Below are positions 20,858-61,000 of a DNA stretch of 63,124 bases, one piece after another; the first letter of the stretch is position 1; every line of letters starts with the position of its first letter. Made by a program: the position numbers and the translations under genes. The notes under the pieces are model-generated. The model was not told the DNA's origin and did not search any database. It was given only the letters and a program-made list of their open reading frames with translations. Origin of the DNA: Acidobacteriota bacterium (GTDB lineage: Bacteria > Acidobacteriota > Vicinamibacteria > Vicinamibacterales > 2-12-FULL-66-21). The DNA is taken from positions 40,812 to 103,935 of the forward strand of contig QHWT01000096.1 in assembly GCA_003222675.1 (NCBI GenBank). Reading direction: 5' to 3'.

Positions 20858-21113
20858 GCGGGGTGCGGGATCCGGGGTGCGGGGTGCGGGATCCGGGTGC
20901 GGGGTGCGGGGTGCGGGATCCGGGTGCGGGGTGCCGGGTGCGGGGTGCGGAATGTAGCAGGTCCTCCGTTCGCCGTGACGATCTCAGCGTTCCGTGCACC
21001 GCCGTCTTACTTGCACTCGCGCCGAGCAGCGCCGCACCCCCGTCGCGGCCCCGCACCCCGCATCCCGGTACCCCCACCCCGCACTCCGCATCCCGCACCC
21101 CCGATTCCTGTAA
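20858..21113. repeat. long inverted tandem-array pair, unit GGGTGCGGGATCC-like
   Basis: The left arm (20858-20957) repeats GGGTGCG and GGGATCCG units. The right arm (about 21045-21113) repeats their complement (CCCGCACCCCGCATCCC). They are separated by about 85 nt of non-repetitive sequence. This is most of the 340 bp gap between ogt and the next gene; I see no gene in it. Confidence 0.85.
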
Positions 21114-25769: not shown

Positions 25770-25850
25770 CGGGCAATGGCGGAATCGGGCAATCGGGTAA
25801 TCGGGTAATTTCAATCTCTCAACTACCCGATTGCCAAATTTCCAAATCTT
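25770..25850. repeat. short inverted tandem-array pair, unit AATCGGGT
   Basis: GGAATCGGGCAATCGGGTAA and TCGGGTAATT on the left face ACTACCCGATTGCCAAATTTCC on the right over a loop of about 14 nt. It separates the receptor remnant from speA and may carry the speA promoter. Confidence 0.82.
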
Positions 25851-37972: not shown

Positions 37973-38050
37973 CGGGATGCGGGATCCGGGGTGCGGGGTG
38001 CGAAAATCACGCAACTCCGCGTCCCGCACCCCGCACCCCGCACTCCGCAC
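37973..38050. repeat. inverted array pair, unit GGGTGCGGGATCC-like
   Basis: GATGCGGGATCCGGGGTGCG faces CGCACCCCGCACCCCGCACT and related units across about 20 nt. The unit is almost the same as in the array at 20858. It lies between two ADOP genes, at the point where the second one has lost its 5' end. Confidence 0.82.
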
Positions 38051-38051
38051 T

Positions 38052-44239: not shown

Positions 44240-44896
44240 CTACACGCGGATGCTGCGCAGCAGCGGAACGAGATCCGACGGTCGATCGACGAGCATGTCG
44301 TCCGGACCGAGATCGTGTTCCGACAACGTGAAGCCGAAGCCATAGCGCACCATGCACACGCGTGTGCGCGCCGCGCGTGCGGTGGCGAGATCGATCGCCG
44401 AGTCGCCGACCATCACTGTTTGCGTCAGCGCAGTTCCGGCGCGATGCATGAGTTCCTGGAGCGGCGCAGGACTCGGCTTCCTCGGCCACGGGCCATCGCC
44501 GCCCAGGATCCATTTGAAGAATCCTGCGACGCCGAGCCCGTCGAGGATGGCGAGCGTTGCCCGGGAAGGCTTGTTCGTGAGCACGGCAAGCGGTGCATCG
44601 GCCGCGAGCGTCTCGATCGCCTCGCGGATGCCATCGTACAGCTGCGTGTGTGTCAGGAGCCTGTCGTCGTACAGCTCGAGGAAACGTGGAAGCGCACCTG
44701 GCGACTCGGGATCGAGCGCCGCCGCCGTCAGAGCGCGCCGGACGAGCAGCGCCGCTCCTTCTCCCACCATGCGCGCGATTGTGTCCACCGGAAGCGGAGC
44801 GCCGCCGCGCTCTTCGAGCAGCGCATTTGCCGCATCGGCCAGATCGCGGCGCGAATCGATGAGCGTGCCATCGAGATCGAAGACGAACAGCGGCAT
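44240..44896 (-). CDS. gph: HAD-family phosphatase, phosphoglycolate phosphatase-like
   Basis: From ATG 44896 the product is 218 residues. HAD motif I is FVFDLDGTL (D7, D9), motif II VLTNKP, motif III a lysine in KPSPAP and motif IV VGDSAIDLATARAA. The small helical cap is of the phosphoglycolate phosphatase type. It would dephosphorylate 2-phosphoglycolate or a similar small phosphate ester. The start overlaps the stop of the upstream ADOP gene (TGATG), so the two are probably translated together, though they seem functionally unrelated. Confidence 0.88.
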   Translation of the reverse strand: MPLFVFDLDGTLIDSRRDLADAANALLEERGGAPLPVDTIARMVGEGAALLVRRALTAAALDPESPGALPRFLELYDDRLLTHTQLYDGIREAIETLAADAPLAVLTNKPSRATLAILDGLGVAGFFKWILGGDGPWPRKPSPAPLQELMHRAGTALTQTVMVGDSAIDLATARAARTRVCMVRYGFGFTLSEHDLGPDDMLVDRPSDLVPLLRSIRV

Positions 44897-47496
44897 CAAT
44901 CGGTCCGGAGCGCCACCAGAGGATCCACCCGTGTGGCGCGGAGCGCCGGCAGCGAACCCGCGAGCGCTGCGACGGCGACGAGCGTGATCGGGACCGACAC
45001 AAGCGTCAGCAGGTCGTGCGGGCTGACGCCAAAGAGCTGCGACGACAGGACGGGCGCGAGCAGGGCCGACGCCGTCGCGCCCACGAGCGCTCCTGCGATG
45101 CTCAATCGCAGCGCGTGGCCGAGCACAAGCTGCATCACCGTGACACGGCGCGCGCCGAGCGCCATGCGCACGCCGATCTCCTGCGTCCGCTGCGCCACGA
45201 GATACGCGATCACGCCGTAGACGCCGATCGCCGCGAGCGCGAGCGCAAGCGCGGCAAAGAGGCTCACGAGCCACGCCGTCAGACGCGGTTGCGCGGCGCT
45301 CTGTTGCAGCATCATGTCCAGCGTCCGGACGTTGAATACGGCGAGCTGCGGATCCAGCGCCGCAACCTTCTGCCGCATGACGGCGCCCATTGGCGAGCTC
45401 CCCGACGATCGCACGATCAGCGTCATCGTGGGCCAGAGGATCTGCTCGCTGCTGAAGTACATCGCGGGCCGAGGCTCCAGGTCCAGCGACAGATTGCGCA
45501 CGTCGCCGACGATGCCGATGACCTGGAAGATCTGCTTGTTGCCGAGTTGCACCTGCCGGCCTAGAGGATCGGCATTGGGCCAGAAGCGGCGTGCGGCGTC
45601 GGCGCTCAGGATGATGCTGTGGGCACCGTGCGTCCCTGTCTCGCGATTGTCGAACGTGCGACCGCGTAACAGCGGAATGGCAAGCGTCCGGAAATACTGC
45701 GGGCTGACGAGGCGCCAGTCCGCTTGCATGTCTTCAGCGCCGAGCGCATTCGCGCCAACCGCCTTCAGGGGCATGCCGGTATTGCCGCCTGCGAACGGTG
45801 CGCCGCTCGACATCGCCGCAGCCTCGACGCCTGGAACGGCCTGCATCTCTGCAAGCAGGCGGCGGTAAAACTGCTGCCGGGCGAGGTCCGTGGGATAGCG
45901 CGCCTCCGGAAGTCCCATCATCGCGGTGGTGAGGTGTTTCGCATTGAATCCCAGTTCCACGTGCTGCAGGCGGAGAAAGCTCTGGACGAAGAGCGCCGCT
46001 CCAGTGAGGAGCACGGTCGCGAGTGCGATCTCGGCCACGACCAGCATCCGCCGCGCGGCCCCCTGCTGCGCGCCCGCGCTGCCGCGCGATCCTTCTCTCA
46101 GCGATCCTGTCATATCGTTTCGAGAGCCGATCATGGCGGGCAGCGCACCAAACGCCGCCGCGGTCAGCACCGACACGACGAGCGAGAAGATGAGCACGGG
46201 CGCGTTCACCGCGATGTCTTCCGCACGAGGGAGCGACGAAGCGAGCGCCGCCCGCAGGGCCGGCACGCCCCACGAGGCTATCAGCACGCCGGCGGTGCCG
46301 CCGACGAGCGCCACGAGCAGACTTTCAGTCAGAACCTGGCGCACGAGGCGGAGACGACTCGCGCCCAGCGCGAGGCGTACCCCGATTTCCCGGCGCCGCA
46401 GCGCCGCGCGTGCGAGCATCAGGTTTGCAACGTTCGAGCACGCAATGAGCAGCACGAGTCCCACCGATCCGAGCAGCAGGTAGAGGCCCTGCCGCATCTC
46501 GGGCGGAACGATCCAGTCGTCGAACGTCGCCATGCGCACGCCCCAGTCCTTGTTGGACTCTGGATACTGCCGCGCGAGCTGCTGCGCGACCGCGTCCATG
46601 TCCAGCTGCGCCTGCGCCAGCGTGATGTCGGGACGGAGACGTCCGATTGTCGACAGCCGGTGATCGGCGCGCGCCTCGCGCGAGAGATCCGGCGCAAGTG
46701 GCGTCAACACCTGCGCGGTTCCGACGAGATCCCGATCGCGCAGGACGCCGACGACCGTATGGGAGACGCCGTTGAGCGCAATCGAGCGACCGATGATGGA
46801 CGGATCGGAGCCGAACCAGTCCCGCCAGACCGACTCCATGATGATCGCGACGCGTGGCGCGCCGGGACGATCCTCCGCGGGCGAAAAATTGCGGCCGCGC
46901 CGCAGCCGCACGTTCAGCAGCGGAATCAGCGTGGCGGTGGCTTCCATGCGGCCGAGGCGGTGGGGCTCGCCCGTGCCCGTCAACGTCACCGTGCCGGAGC
47001 GCCACGCGGCCAGCTCCGCAAACGATCGGCCGTGCTCGCGCCACGACAGGTAGTTCGGCACCGACGTCGAGAACTGCGCGATGTTCAAGCGATCGTTCTT
47101 TTCCCAGATTCTGACGAGCCGCGCGGGATCGAAGAAACCGAGCGGCTGAATGGCGACGGCGTGCACGACGCTGAAGATCGCCGTGTTCACGCCGATGCCC
47201 AGCGCGAGCGTGGCGATCGCGACGACACTGAAGACGGGCGCACGCCAGAGCGCGCGCGCCGCGAATTTCAGATCGTACAGGGTCATCATGACGTGTTCTC
47301 CTGGCGCCCGGACGAGCGCATCGACGGCCACGCCGATCCAGAAAGCCGCCACGCCTGCCCGGCCGCGCGCGGCCGCCTCCATGCGCGCCGCGCGATACGC
47401 GCTCGTCATGCCGTGGCCGAAACGATCCCTGAACTCGGCCGGATACAGCCGGAGGACGAGGCCGAACACGCGCTCTGCCACCGCGCGGTGCTTCAT
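44896..47496 (-). CDS. ADOP-family (MacB-like) ABC permease
   Basis: The 866-residue protein has a different soluble prefix from the 35294 permease (residues 1-70, LRLYPAEFRDRFGHGM...AFWIGVAVDAL, one predicted span). The standard ADOP layout follows: [23 protein letters not shown], periplasmic domain, central membrane block ([33 protein letters not shown]), second periplasmic domain and the C-terminal block (IGVYGVIAYLVAQRTQEIGVRMALGA). It overlaps the PadR gene upstream by ATGA. Confidence 0.92.
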   Translation of the reverse strand: MKHRAVAERVFGLVLRLYPAEFRDRFGHGMTSAYRAARMEAAARGRAGVAAFWIGVAVDALVRAPGEHVMMTLYDLKFAARALWRAPVFSVVAIATLALGIGVNTAIFSVVHAVAIQPLGFFDPARLVRIWEKNDRLNIAQFSTSVPNYLSWREHGRSFAELAAWRSGTVTLTGTGEPHRLGRMEATATLIPLLNVRLRRGRNFSPAEDRPGAPRVAIIMESVWRDWFGSDPSIIGRSIALNGVSHTVVGVLRDRDLVGTAQVLTPLAPDLSREARADHRLSTIGRLRPDITLAQAQLDMDAVAQQLARQYPESNKDWGVRMATFDDWIVPPEMRQGLYLLLGSVGLVLLIACSNVANLMLARAALRRREIGVRLALGASRLRLVRQVLTESLLVALVGGTAGVLIASWGVPALRAALASSLPRAEDIAVNAPVLIFSLVVSVLTAAAFGALPAMIGSRNDMTGSLREGSRGSAGAQQGAARRMLVVAEIALATVLLTGAALFVQSFLRLQHVELGFNAKHLTTAMMGLPEARYPTDLARQQFYRRLLAEMQAVPGVEAAAMSSGAPFAGGNTGMPLKAVGANALGAEDMQADWRLVSPQYFRTLAIPLLRGRTFDNRETGTHGAHSIILSADAARRFWPNADPLGRQVQLGNKQIFQVIGIVGDVRNLSLDLEPRPAMYFSSEQILWPTMTLIVRSSGSSPMGAVMRQKVAALDPQLAVFNVRTLDMMLQQSAAQPRLTAWLVSLFAALALALAAIGVYGVIAYLVAQRTQEIGVRMALGARRVTVMQLVLGHALRLSIAGALVGATASALLAPVLSSQLFGVSPHDLLTLVSVPITLVAVAALAGSLPALRATRVDPLVALRTD

Positions 47497-47843
47497 GATC
47501 GCCGCGGCACCAGACCTGTCGCGCGCGCGTGCTGCAAGAGCGCCCTCAACCGGTCCGCCTCCGCGGCGGCCACCGCGCGGCCGAAGCGTGTGACCCGGTA
47601 GTACCTGCGCCGCTCGTCATCGTCATCCGGCCGGCGCGTCAGCTCATCGATCAGCCCCTCGTCGAGCATCCGGCGGATCGATCCGTACAGAGTCCCGGGG
47701 CTCATGCGGACCTTCCCGTCCGTGCGCCGCGCGACGTCCTGCATGATGGCGTAGCCATGCCGCTCGCCATCGCCGAGGGCGATCAGGATATGAAAGAACG
47801 CGGGGGGAAGAGGCAATTGCCGGGTAATATCAGAGTCGGCCAT
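47493..47843 (-). CDS. PadR-family transcriptional regulator
   Basis: From ATG 47843 the product is 116 residues. The winged helix reads LPPAFFHILIALGDGERHGYAIMQDV, MSPGTLYGSIRRMLDEGLIDEL and RRRYYRVTRFGRAVAAAE. It begins the operon with the ADOP permease and the HAD phosphatase. An upstream in-frame extension would run through the operator and is not likely to be translated. Confidence 0.92.
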   Translation of the reverse strand: MADSDITRQLPLPPAFFHILIALGDGERHGYAIMQDVARRTDGKVRMSPGTLYGSIRRMLDEGLIDELTRRPDDDDERRRYYRVTRFGRAVAAAEADRLRALLQHARATGLVPRRS

Positions 47844-47861: not shown

Positions 47862-47937
47862 ACGTACTTCGATACAGTGTCGCAAGCCGCCGAACCCCCG
47901 GCAAATGTTTGCGGGTTGAACGGCCAGTGCGATTCAG

Positions 47938-48616
47938 TAATTGGGGAATCGGGGAATCGGAAAATTGAGGAATTGGGGAATCGGGGAGCCGCGTTCGCGC
48001 GGCTTGTTGGAGATACTGCGTACCACGATCCTGGCTGATTCGCAGATTTCTCACGGATCCGACCACACAGTGACACTTTGCGGCGAAATTGGTCCAGGCA
48101 CATCCAATGCATCTTGGGAGAGTATGACGCCGCAAGAACTCCGCGCGAGAACCAAACGATTCGCTATTGACATCGTGAAGATCGCACGTTCGGTGCCGCG
48201 CGAGTGGTACGTGCGAGTGATTGGAGGGCAGCTGTTACGTGCAGGCACCGCGGTCGCGGCAAACTACCGAGTTTGTTGCCGCGCCAGGTCCGACCGCGAG
48301 TTCTGCGCGAAGATGGGCGTCGTTGTAGAAGAATCCGACGAGTCGCAGCTTTGGCTGGAGCTGCTCGCGGTGGCGCACTCGCGTATGAACACGAGCGAGT
48401 ACCGGCGCGTGATGAAAGAGGCAGCCGAACTAACGGCGATCTTTACTGCGTCGCACTCAACAGCGAAGGCGAATCTACAGCGACGTGCGCGAGAACGTGT
48501 GCGAAAACGATCTCAAAACGCGCAGGGTTCGAGTTCTTGATAATCGCGCTCGCCGCGACGTGAGTCAATGCCCCAATTACCCGATTACTGAATTCCCCGA
48601 TTACGCAATTCGCGAA
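47938..48616. mobile_element. inverted-array cassette around a four-helix-bundle gene
   Basis: The left arm (47938-47987) consists of GGAATCGG and GGAATTGGG units. The right arm (48570-48616) is the complementary set (CCCCAATTACCCGATTACTG, AATTCCCCGATTACGCAATT). Between them lies one small gene (48124-48540). The right arm runs up to the stop codon of the neighbouring VOC gene. No transposase, target duplication or known terminal sequence is visible, so calling it mobile is inference. Confidence 0.6.
48124..48540 (+). CDS. four-helix-bundle protein of the S23/IVP type
   Basis: The 138-residue protein starts MTPQELRARTKRFAIDIVKI and contains LLRAGTAVAANYRVCCRARS and FCAKMGVVVEESDESQLWLEL, typical of the small four-helix-bundle family (TIGR02436). 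That family is named after proteins encoded by intervening sequences in 23S rRNA genes; the Avd protein of diversity-generating retroelements has a similar fold. It probably binds nucleic acid as an oligomer. It is the only gene inside the inverted-array cassette. The tail after residue 115 is arginine-rich. Confidence 0.88.
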   Translation: MTPQELRARTKRFAIDIVKIARSVPREWYVRVIGGQLLRAGTAVAANYRVCCRARSDREFCAKMGVVVEESDESQLWLELLAVAHSRMNTSEYRRVMKEAAELTAIFTASHSTAKANLQRRARERVRKRSQNAQGSSS

Positions 48617-48617
48617 T

Positions 48618-49001
48618 TTATGCCGCGTCCGGCGGCTGATAGAGCGCCGCAACCGCGCCGGCGGGATCCTTGATGACGCAGAAGCGGCCGCCGCCCATGC
48701 TGCGCGGCGGCGCGATCACGCTGCCGCCCAGGCGCTGGCACTCGGCGATGCTGTGATCGAGATCGTCGACGGTGATATAGACCAGCCACAGGGCGGGAAG
48801 ATCGGCATTGAGGCCGCGCGCGTGGCAGACGCCGGCCACCGGTTCGCCATCGGCCTTCATCACGAAGTCTGCATACGCCCCCATGCTGAGCGGCTCCGGC
48901 TTCCATCCGATCACCGACGCGTAGAAATCGCGGAGTGACTCTGCGTTCGAAACCGTCAAGTCCTGCCAGGTGATCGTTCCGGGGCGAGGCGTGGTGCTCA
49001 T
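48618..49001 (-). CDS. VOC-superfamily (glyoxalase/bleomycin resistance-like) protein
   Basis: From ATG 49001 the product is 127 residues with the paired beta-alpha-beta-beta-beta modules of the vicinal oxygen chelate fold (ITWQDLTVSNAESLRDFYASVIGWK, LWLVYITVDDLDHSIAECQRLGG, GGRFCVIKDPAGAVAALYQP). The substrate is unknown. The TAA stop codon abuts the right array arm of the four-helix-bundle cassette. Confidence 0.9.
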   Translation of the reverse strand: MSTTPRPGTITWQDLTVSNAESLRDFYASVIGWKPEPLSMGAYADFVMKADGEPVAGVCHARGLNADLPALWLVYITVDDLDHSIAECQRLGGSVIAPPRSMGGGRFCVIKDPAGAVAALYQPPDAA

Positions 49002-49158
49002 CGAGCAGCATCTTATTCGATCCGCATGAACGTCTGAGGACGGTTGTCGGACGACGGAGTGCAGACGTGCGCTGCGCGAAGTGCGGTGTGCGAATGCTTT
49101 CACCGCTCTCGTCGCTTCTGGTGTGATTCTGAAGATCCTGCTTGAGTTCCGGATCCGC

Positions 49159-49201
49159 ACCTCGCGCCTCGGACCTCGGACCTCGGACCTCGGACCTCGT
49201 T
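49159..49201. repeat. single-arm tandem array, unit CGGACCT
   Basis: Four near-perfect CGGACCT units lie just before the PAP2 gene. A weak complementary stretch (GAGGACGG...CGGACGACGGAG) lies at about 49035. No gene is seen between 49002 and 49217. Confidence 0.7.
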
Positions 49202-49217: not shown

Positions 49218-49988
49218 GTGCGTGCGTGGGAAGCCGGCAGCGCCGTGTTCTTCGTGTACCTCGCGATCACGGCACTCGTCCGTGGCGGCCGCGCGGGCGC
49301 GCGGCCGCGGGCGCTGCTTGCCGCCGTCGCCGGCCTCCTCCTGAGCGGCGCGTCGGCGCGCATGAATGAGGTTCCGATCCTGCATGCGTGGCTTCTTCCG
49401 CCCATCCTGCTGTTGACCGCGTATTGGGGCACCGGCGCGCTGTTTGTCGCGCCCATGCCCCGCGTCGAACGGGATCTGCGCGGCTTCGATGAGACGCTCC
49501 GTATCCGGTCGATCGCGGCGCGCATGCCGCGCGCCATCGCCGAGATTCTCGAGGTCGCCTACTCCGGCGTGTATCCGGCGGTGCCATTGGCACTGTGGAT
49601 CGCGCTCGACGCGGGAGAAAGCGCCGCCCACTGCTGGACGGTCGTCCTCTTCACAGACTACGTCTGCTTCGGTTGTCTGCCGTGGATCCAGAGCCGCCCA
49701 CCGCGCGCGCTCGAGGATGAGCCCTGGCGCTCGCGATGGCGAGCGGTGAACCTGCAAATCCTCGCATCAGGCAGCATCGGAGCGAATACGTTCCCCAGCG
49801 GTCACGCCGCTGAGGGCCTGGCCTGCGCACTGCTCGTGACGCGCGCGCCGTGGCCGATTGTCATCGCGATGTTCGTGAACGCCGGCGCGATTGCTGCCGG
49901 CGCCGTCTTCGGTCGGTATCATTACGCCGCGGATGCGATCTTCGGCTGGATCGTCGCGCTCATCGTGTGGGCAGTCAGTGGCCAGTAA
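49218..49988 (+). CDS. PAP2-family membrane phosphatase
   Basis: The 256-residue protein has five or six hydrophobic segments and two of the three PAP2 motifs in clear form: FPSGHAAEG (near 192) and GRYHYAADAIFG (near 236). It probably removes phosphate from a lipid-linked substrate such as undecaprenyl pyrophosphate or phosphatidate. The lysine-containing first motif is not obvious. The stop codon TAA is the first CAGTAACC unit of the following array. Confidence 0.85.
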   Translation: MRAWEAGSAVFFVYLAITALVRGGRAGARPRALLAAVAGLLLSGASARMNEVPILHAWLLPPILLLTAYWGTGALFVAPMPRVERDLRGFDETLRIRSIAARMPRAIAEILEVAYSGVYPAVPLALWIALDAGESAAHCWTVVLFTDYVCFGCLPWIQSRPPRALEDEPWRSRWRAVNLQILASGSIGANTFPSGHAAEGLACALLVTRAPWPIVIAMFVNAGAIAAGAVFGRYHYAADAIFGWIVALIVWAVSGQ

Positions 49989-50108
49989 CCAGTAACCAGT
50001 AACCAGTAACCAGTAACCGGTAGCCAGTAGCTAGTAGTAGCCCGTAGCAACTAACCGCAACCGGCCACTGGCAACCGGCCACTGGTTATCGGCAACTGAC
50101 AACTGACC
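49977..50108. repeat. tandem array, CCAGTAA units with a partly inverted second half
   Basis: Five nearly perfect CAGTAAC units and variants run to about 50030. The second half (CCACTGGCAACCGGCCACTG, GTTATCGGCAACTGACAACT) is partly their complement. It separates the convergent PAP2 and permease genes and touches both stop codons. Confidence 0.82.
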
Positions 50109-53240: not shown

Positions 53241-53350
53241 AAAAATCGGGTAATCGGGTAATCGGGTAATTGACGCGCCTTATGTGCGACACTGCGGTCG
53301 ATTACCAGATCACACAATTATCAGATTACCCAATTCCCAAATTACCCGAT
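53241..53350. repeat. inverted tandem-array pair, unit AATCGGGT
   Basis: Left arm AAAAATCGGGTAATCGGGTA and further units to about 53271; right arm CAGATTACCCAATTCCCAAA and TTACCCGAT to 53350. The core of about 45 nt includes GTGCGACACTGCGGTCG. The ATG of the peptidase gene begins in the last unit (CCCGATG). Confidence 0.85.
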
Positions 53351-60398: not shown

Positions 60399-61000
60399 AG
60401 GGCTTCGGGCTTCTGGGGCTTCAGGCTTCAGGCCCGGCCGTCGACCACTGCGGCGTGTCTCCTCGGCCGCAGCCTCGAGTTCTAGTGCTGTCACCAATTT
60501 GACCAGTGATGCGCACAGTGTATCGAGTCGTGGCGTCAGCGCCGTCAGCGCTGTCCTTGACAGTAAGCCAAGTCGAAATGCCAGGTCGGCGAGGTACCTC
60601 ATTTCGAAGGCAGACCCGCCCGCGATGTTGCAGAAATTTAAATACTCCTTTGTGCCTCGCCTGGCAGATCCTTCAACCAGGTTGCTGGACGCCGACACCG
60701 ATGCGCGCCGGATCTGTGCGCGCAGTCCGTACCATTCGTCGCGGGGAAAATCCTTTGTTTCGCAATAGATGTCCGTGACGAGCGAGTCGGCGATTTGGAA
60801 CGCTCTCAGCTTGCCGTGATCTCTGCTCATGCAGGCCTCCGCCCCGTAAGGGCAAGATCCTCGCCCGTGGCTTCGCCCGAAGCCGGAAGCCCTGAAGCCG
60901 GAAGCCCTGAAGCCCGAAGCCCGAAGCCCGAAGCTCGAAGCCCGAAGCTCGAAGCCCGAAGCTCGAAGCCCGAAGCCCGAAGCCCGAAGCCCGAAGCCTT
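60396..61000. mobile_element. inverted-array cassette around a second four-helix-bundle gene
   Basis: The left arm (60396-60435) has GGGCTTCTGGGGCTTCAGG units. The right arm (60866-61000) is a long run of complementary GAAGCCCGAAGC and GAAGCTC units, starting with a degenerate palindrome (GTGGCTTCGCCC). Between them, on the complement strand, lies a four-helix-bundle gene. The right arm ends directly at the promoter of the next gene. Confidence 0.6.
60399..60830 (-). CDS. four-helix-bundle protein of the S23/IVP type, without its own stop codon
   Basis: From ATG 60830, preceded by GGAGG, the protein reads SRDHGKLRAFQIADSLVTDI, LRAQIRRASVSASSNLVEGS and EYLNFCNIAGGSAFEMRYLA, a clear S23-like four-helix bundle of about 120 residues. 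After AAAEETRRS the frame enters the array (GLKPEAPEARSP) and stays open antisense to the ADOP gene until 59397, which would give 477 residues. The extension has no biological look, so the normal stop was probably lost at the array junction. Only the four-helix part is listed here. Confidence 0.8.

Follow-up and report, generated by a model that had tools for sequence, protein, structure and literature searches.

The S23 gene in a 63,124-nucleotide stretch of DNA from an Acidobacteriota bacterium (assembly GCA_003222675.1, contig QHWT01000096.1; hereafter the window) is part of a minimal mobile element. This element consists of a short tandem array, the S23 gene and an inverted array, and derivatives without the gene exist. 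Our analysis indicates that the element probably spreads itself, with S23 as its dedicated factor.

In the window, the left arm (positions 47932 to 47987, plus strand) is built from tandem AAT(C/T)GGGG 8-mers with the G-rich strand pointing inward, the S23 or 23S-IVP-family gene (48124 to 48540, plus strand) encodes a protein of 138 amino acids, and the right arm (48568 to 48617, minus strand) is the inverted array CCCC(G/A)ATT. Tandem Repeats Finder resolved the left array (47939 to 47987) into 6.1 copies of AATCGGGG and the right array (48574 to 48611) into 2.4 copies of a double unit, CAATTCCCCGATTACG. The arms are inverted copies of each other, with 72% pairing over 50 nt between 47932 to 47981 and 48568 to 48617 and a best stretch of 26 nt at 85%. 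S23 is the sole recognized gene between them; no Y1 transposase and no enzyme is encoded there. The protein scored above the curated cutoffs of PF05635 (39.4 bits, cutoff 33.8) and TIGR02436 (61.8 bits, cutoff 24), and its AlphaFold2 model consists of four helices (mean predicted local distance difference test score, 96.4). Foldseek matched it to the solved S23 proteins 2RLD and 2GSC (TM score, 0.67 to 0.73) and also to Avd of diversity-generating retroelements (DGRs), in 8UB7, where it lies within the DGR reverse transcriptase ribonucleoprotein, and in 4DWL. The initial annotation, made without database searches, had described a four-helix-bundle, S23/IVP-like gene as the only gene between complementary arrays; repeat finding, inverted pairing, profiles and structure comparison bear out this description of both the arrays and the protein. 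The copy lies outside rRNA genes, between a locus for a PadR regulator and an FtsX-type permease on one side and a glyoxalase-like gene on the other, and its right array stops directly at the stop codon (48618 to 48620) of the convergent glyoxalase-like gene.

The arrangement is not peculiar to this copy. The window genome has eight TIGR02436 genes, all of them flanked by inverted arrays whose unit differs from gene to gene (AGGAGCT, AGCTGGC, CGGGGTG, GGGCTTC, TTCACGG, AATYGGGG, ATCCCTG and GGTTCTC), a result that is partly circular because the inverted-flank score threshold of 15.5 was fixed after inspecting these loci. Across many phyla, 167 of 215 distinct S23 genes have inverted arms, compared with 1 of 137 control positions in the same loci. 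By group, arms were found for 8/8 genes in the window genome, 47/53 in its order, 28/29 in Lysobacterales, 77/117 in other phyla and 7/8 on plasmids, and within the order S23 is carried by 42 of 60 genomes in 1 to 17 copies. A set of 70 loci from other taxa in many phyla, picked by protein similarity alone with a single query protein and therefore biased toward relatives of that query, yielded 46, 37 and 26 inverted flanks at thresholds of 14, 18 and 20, against 8, 1 and 1 among 221 control positions. The unit is mostly 7 or 8 nt long (8 nt in the window element, 7 nt in most relatives, and 9 to 11 nt in some Bacteroidales), and the polarity of the arms is constant: in S23-sense orientation, the left arm is the G-rich one in 94 of 108 cases, with 14 opposite. 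In one Lysobacterales metagenome-assembled genome (L115/L216), an S23 gene has very long, near-perfect inverted flanks of GC-rich hairpins (CTGGGGAACGCGCGC), not simple heptamers. The metagenome-assembled genome of a WOR-3 bacterium (G070), with 29 TIGR02436 matches in 4.7 Mb and mostly different units, is a candidate for a very active host.

Could heptamer arrays simply be common in intergenic DNA, where S23 genes happen to sit? The background density of the window genome, measured on sampled stretches, is indeed 11 arrays per 100 kb. However, inverted arms occur at 0.7 to 3% of control positions compared with 78% of S23 genes, and at 400 random positions of the window genome with flanks of 900 nt, 2.25% reached the score of the weakest S23 locus. 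No inverted array pair with a gap of 250 to 900 bp was present in random control DNA (400 kb, two genomes), which contained only gene-less short pairs with gaps below 100 bp plus one distant pair; in S23 regions, 12 of 15 pairs with such a 250- to 900-bp gap enclose an S23 gene. We regard coincidence as refuted by these control positions and control DNA and give it next to no chance.

Filled and empty sites in close relatives, by which a mobile element is generally recognized, are found in same-family pairs both on plasmids and in rRNA operons. Among Nostocales plasmids, the element is present in plasmid C of Trichormus variabilis and in Scytonema NIES-4073 and exactly absent from Aulosira NIES-50 and Tolypothrix PCC 7601, where the sites are 97 to 98% identical to the filled ones. 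The Nostoc plasmid pNsp_a is filled at a site that is empty in four relatives. In pNsp_c, the neighboring gene junction of this operon is occupied by a different S23 element whose unit is of the GGGGAAAA type. In Nostoc N6, an S23 gene is itself interrupted by a short S23-less element with inverted AGAAGTC/AGGAGTC arrays. A plasmid of Picosynechococcus PCC 7003 has an S23 element between cas10/cmr2 and cmr3 (L083, 2971 to 3327) that PCC 7002 lacks. We also observed an S23 element inside the CRISPR-Cas operon of a Pseudanabaena galeata plasmid, between cas6 and cas4 (L078, 2977 to 3336). Both of these elements interrupt CRISPR-Cas operons and might influence Cas expression. We considered a DDE-type insertion sequence or a miniature inverted-repeat transposable element and rejected both, given that the element has no transposase and no target-site duplication of fixed length.

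For the window copy, no clean empty site was found in the two relatives compared (G001 and G010). In both, the phosphatase gene gph directly adjoins the glyoxalase-like gene, without an S23 element. The comparison is not clean because in the window genome the PadR regulator and the large FtsX/MacB-type permease (44896 to 47843, minus strand), both absent there in the two relatives, also intervene between these genes; this locus is a rearrangement separate from the adjoining S23 element.

The precise filled and empty alleles also bear on the idea of S23 as a host regulator that binds the arrays, in which case selection or slippage, and not mobility, would have spread them. Arrays do co-occur with S23 and share its unit, and a regulatory role as G-quadruplex elements has been discussed for the heptamer arrays of xanthomonads and Nostoc (PMC4692102). 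Besides the alleles, this idea has to contend with insertions in 23S rRNA and within the S23 gene of another element, with an operon whose neighboring junctions hold two different elements and with up to 29 S23 matches per genome whose units mostly differ. We therefore consider a host regulator distinctly unlikely and return to a mobile element.

One of these insertions connects the element to the intervening sequences (IVSs) of 23S rRNA. In Azospirillum lipoferum 4B, a 23S rRNA gene (Rfam large-subunit match at 1768 to 4966 of L082) contains an S23 gene that is bordered by inverted heptamer arrays with AGAGGAC, GGATGAC and GGAGGAC units. In a second rrn copy of this strain (L337), the site is occupied only by the helix-45 hairpin GTGTGATCTTCGATCACGC, so that the IVS amounts to 473 nt replacing 19 nt. 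The IVSs of Leptospira, Coxiella and Azospirillum resemble the elements described here in having an S23 gene, a length of about 430 to 470 nt and inverted ends; the latter differ in that they are intergenic or lie in operons, have many copies, many units and dispersed S23-less arrays and undergo no known excision. In the Coxiella IVS, three tandem GACAGAT heptamers stand ahead of the S23 open reading frame, and the same paper recalls an idea from 1993 that this frame served mobility (PMC4990558). Because both the Azospirillum and the Coxiella IVS carry heptamer arrays, IVSs of the S23 type appear to represent a form of this element.

The initial annotation had supposed such a kinship with rRNA IVSs, which is direct in view of the Azospirillum and Coxiella arrays, and had proposed looking for inverted arrays around other TIGR02436 genes and for empty sites in relatives. 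Most S23 genes do have inverted arrays, and both cyanobacterial plasmids and 23S rRNA provide empty sites, if not for the window copy. Its suggestion of a related, freely inserted element is thus upheld by flanks and empty sites, while the further suggestion that the protein serves the spread of the element is an inference from the link between arrays and S23 and from the codivergence of units and proteins described below.

Arrays occur far beyond the S23 genes themselves. Twelve S23-carrier genomes contained 70 short tandem arrays in 598 kb (59 of them with a period of 7 or 8) and 12 relatives without S23 contained 3 arrays in 495 kb (one with a period of 7 or 8), in a comparison that ignores phylogeny and samples several carriers by 20 kb each. 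When 47 orphan arrays of the window genome were compared with S23 arms, 66% matched one from the genome's own eight elements and 6% matched arms of either of two genomes belonging to another family. Elsewhere in the window genome, five alternating CAGTTAC and AGCTGGC arrays are clustered without a gene (L051, 4273 to 5712, on contig C60); they are perhaps nested or rearranged S23-less elements. The similarity of units follows the identity of the proteins (Mantel r of 0.27; 0 of 1,000 permutations): the unit is shared by half of the protein pairs that are at least 70% identical, and distant proteins do not share it. The seven-base arrays dispersed in bacterial genomes appear to derive from S23 elements.

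Such arrays have been reported more than once, with no account of their origin; among them are the short tandemly repeated repetitive (STRR) heptamers of Calothrix. Others are the GGGAATC arrays of Xanthomonas, whose inverted pairs number 70 and 75 in two xanthomonads, and the GGGGATT arrays of Nostoc (PMC4692102), the heptamer repeats in P6b of Nostoc trnL (PMC4476775) and the TAACTGA arrays of Beggiatoaceae (PMC4679880). They share the tandem heptamer design with the arms of S23 elements, and GGGAATC is itself such an arm unit, as GGGAATC and GGGATTC flank S23 genes in Lysobacterales, the order of Xanthomonas. A text search of these three papers found no mention of S23, and apart from the work on the Coxiella IVS, a literature search that did not cover preprints turned up no paper connecting S23 genes with heptamer arrays.

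Several points weigh against a self-spreading element, and the limits of the comparison between carriers and noncarriers are among them. Mobility was read from filled and empty sites, and no movement was observed directly. No constant target-site duplication appears among the filled and empty pairs; there is one possible 8-bp case, GTAATTAA in Trichormus, and none is clear in the others. The element encodes no enzyme, S23 being its only gene, and we know of no catalytic residues in S23. About one-third of the S23 genes outside the order of the window genome and the Lysobacterales lack a clear inverted array, and the codivergence of unit and protein would also be expected from simple coinheritance.

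How, then, might the element spread? We infer that S23 itself drives the process. The protein would recognize its own array, probably as DNA when the ends fold back, and cutting and copying would fall to host replication or repair enzymes or to some enzyme acting in trans. The same S23 protein may also spread arrays that have lost the gene. The solved relative of the protein is a pentameric ring of four-helix bundles, with the same fold as Avd. Recognition at the level of DNA is favored because the arms show no excess of G·U over A·C mismatches; the numbers on the S23-sense strand are 182 and 178. We had considered maintenance of the arms at the RNA level and rejected it for this lack of asymmetry: the equal numbers give no sign of selection on RNA pairing, but array homogenization could blur the signal. 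A mechanism based on fold-back DNA is a tentative proposal, to which we give somewhat worse than even odds. The fold-back transposons (Drosophila FB, Galileo and Tetris) likewise have long inverted ends, built from short units in tandem; the S23 element differs from them in being bacterial, lacking a transposase and having one small gene. Within rRNA genes and operons, the element may be tolerated if RNase III can excise the hairpin formed by its transcript. Such removal of the hairpin has been shown by others, for IVSs only.

A transposase acting in trans could stand in for the missing enzyme. RAYT genes, which encode transposases associated with repetitive extragenic palindromic (REP) sequences and form REPtrons, stand singly between inverted repeats, with many similar gene-less repeats (REP and BIME sequences) dispersed in the genome. 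This anatomy, a gene between inverted repeats plus dispersed gene-less ones, is the one seen here, and the lack of a fixed target duplication would also fit a Y1 transposase of the IS200/IS605 or RAYT type that moves the element, with S23 as an accessory or passenger. Y1_Tnp is found in 34 of 41 S23-carrying relatives and 7 of 18 noncarriers (P = 0.0016; relatives G001 to G059), an association that ignores genome size and phylogeny. However, three S23-rich genomes, G018 (17 copies), G029 (8 copies) and G003 (7 copies), have no Y1_Tnp match. In addition, the RAYT system has a Y1 transposase where the element has a four-helix bundle, and REPs are single palindromes, unlike tandem arrays of 7- or 8-mers. 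A Y1 transposase is thus unlikely to be the mover, in our judgment.

The fold of S23 suggests another candidate. Avd has the same fold, and Foldseek pairs the window protein with it in 8UB7 and 4DWL; S23 might hence bring the element's folded RNA to a reverse transcriptase acting in trans. In contrast to DGRs, no reverse transcriptase or template repeat lies near S23, and carriers often lack RVT_1. No reverse transcriptase was found near the S23 gene of the window either; the single RVT_1 match of its genome is on contig C55 and the window is on C135. RVT_1 is as frequent in carriers (13/41) as in noncarriers (6/18; P = 1) and is missing in two complete genomes, G014 (10 S23 copies) and G027 (6 copies), and the mismatches in the arms show no preference for G·U. 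Such retro-mobility is improbable, and a self-spreading element with S23 as its own factor remains our preferred explanation.

The window contains further members of this family of sequences. A second S23 element spans 60400 to 60998, with a short arm of GGGCTTC units (60400 to 60433, plus strand; inverted score, 15.5), an S23 gene (60483 to 60830, minus strand; TIGR02436, 86.8 bits, matched at 101294 to 101608 of contig C135) that likely starts with the ATG at 60830 and a long arm of 17 GCCCGAA units (60875 to 60998, minus strand; Tandem Repeats Finder). Two short inverted pairs lack S23: one at 20858 to 21101, with GCGGGGT and CCCCGCA arrays across a 98-bp gap and the unit of the S23 element at locus L003, and one at 37973 to 38051, with CGGGATG units and a 14-bp gap. 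Orphan arrays of the window element's own unit family, AATCGGGT, lie at 25775 to 25809 (score of 20 against its arm) and at 53244 to 53270 (score of 17; also found by Tandem Repeats Finder). There is a further heptamer array, ACCTCGG, at 49156 to 49199, and a CCAGTAA array with a degenerate partner at 49976 to 50103, whose unit matches none of the arms of the eight S23 elements of the genome and which is perhaps a relic of a lost element.

In summary, we rate the S23 element as a new class of element of which the IVSs are the known corner. On balance, we lean toward a class of minimal elements that crosses phyla, whose sole gene, for a nonenzymatic four-helix bundle, recognizes and spreads tandem heptamers and which is the source of both the S23-type IVSs and the overrepresented heptamer repeats of bacteria. 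This reading poses a sharp mechanistic question, namely, how an element moves without a gene for a known nuclease, transposase or polymerase. It places S23/IVP, a widespread family of unknown function, in a genomic context and proposes an origin for the intervening sequences of rRNA. Seven-base tandem repeats serve as typing markers, and our work ties S23 and the IVSs to the unexplained excess of such repeats in bacteria, from the STRRs of cyanobacteria to the GGGAATC arrays of xanthomonads.
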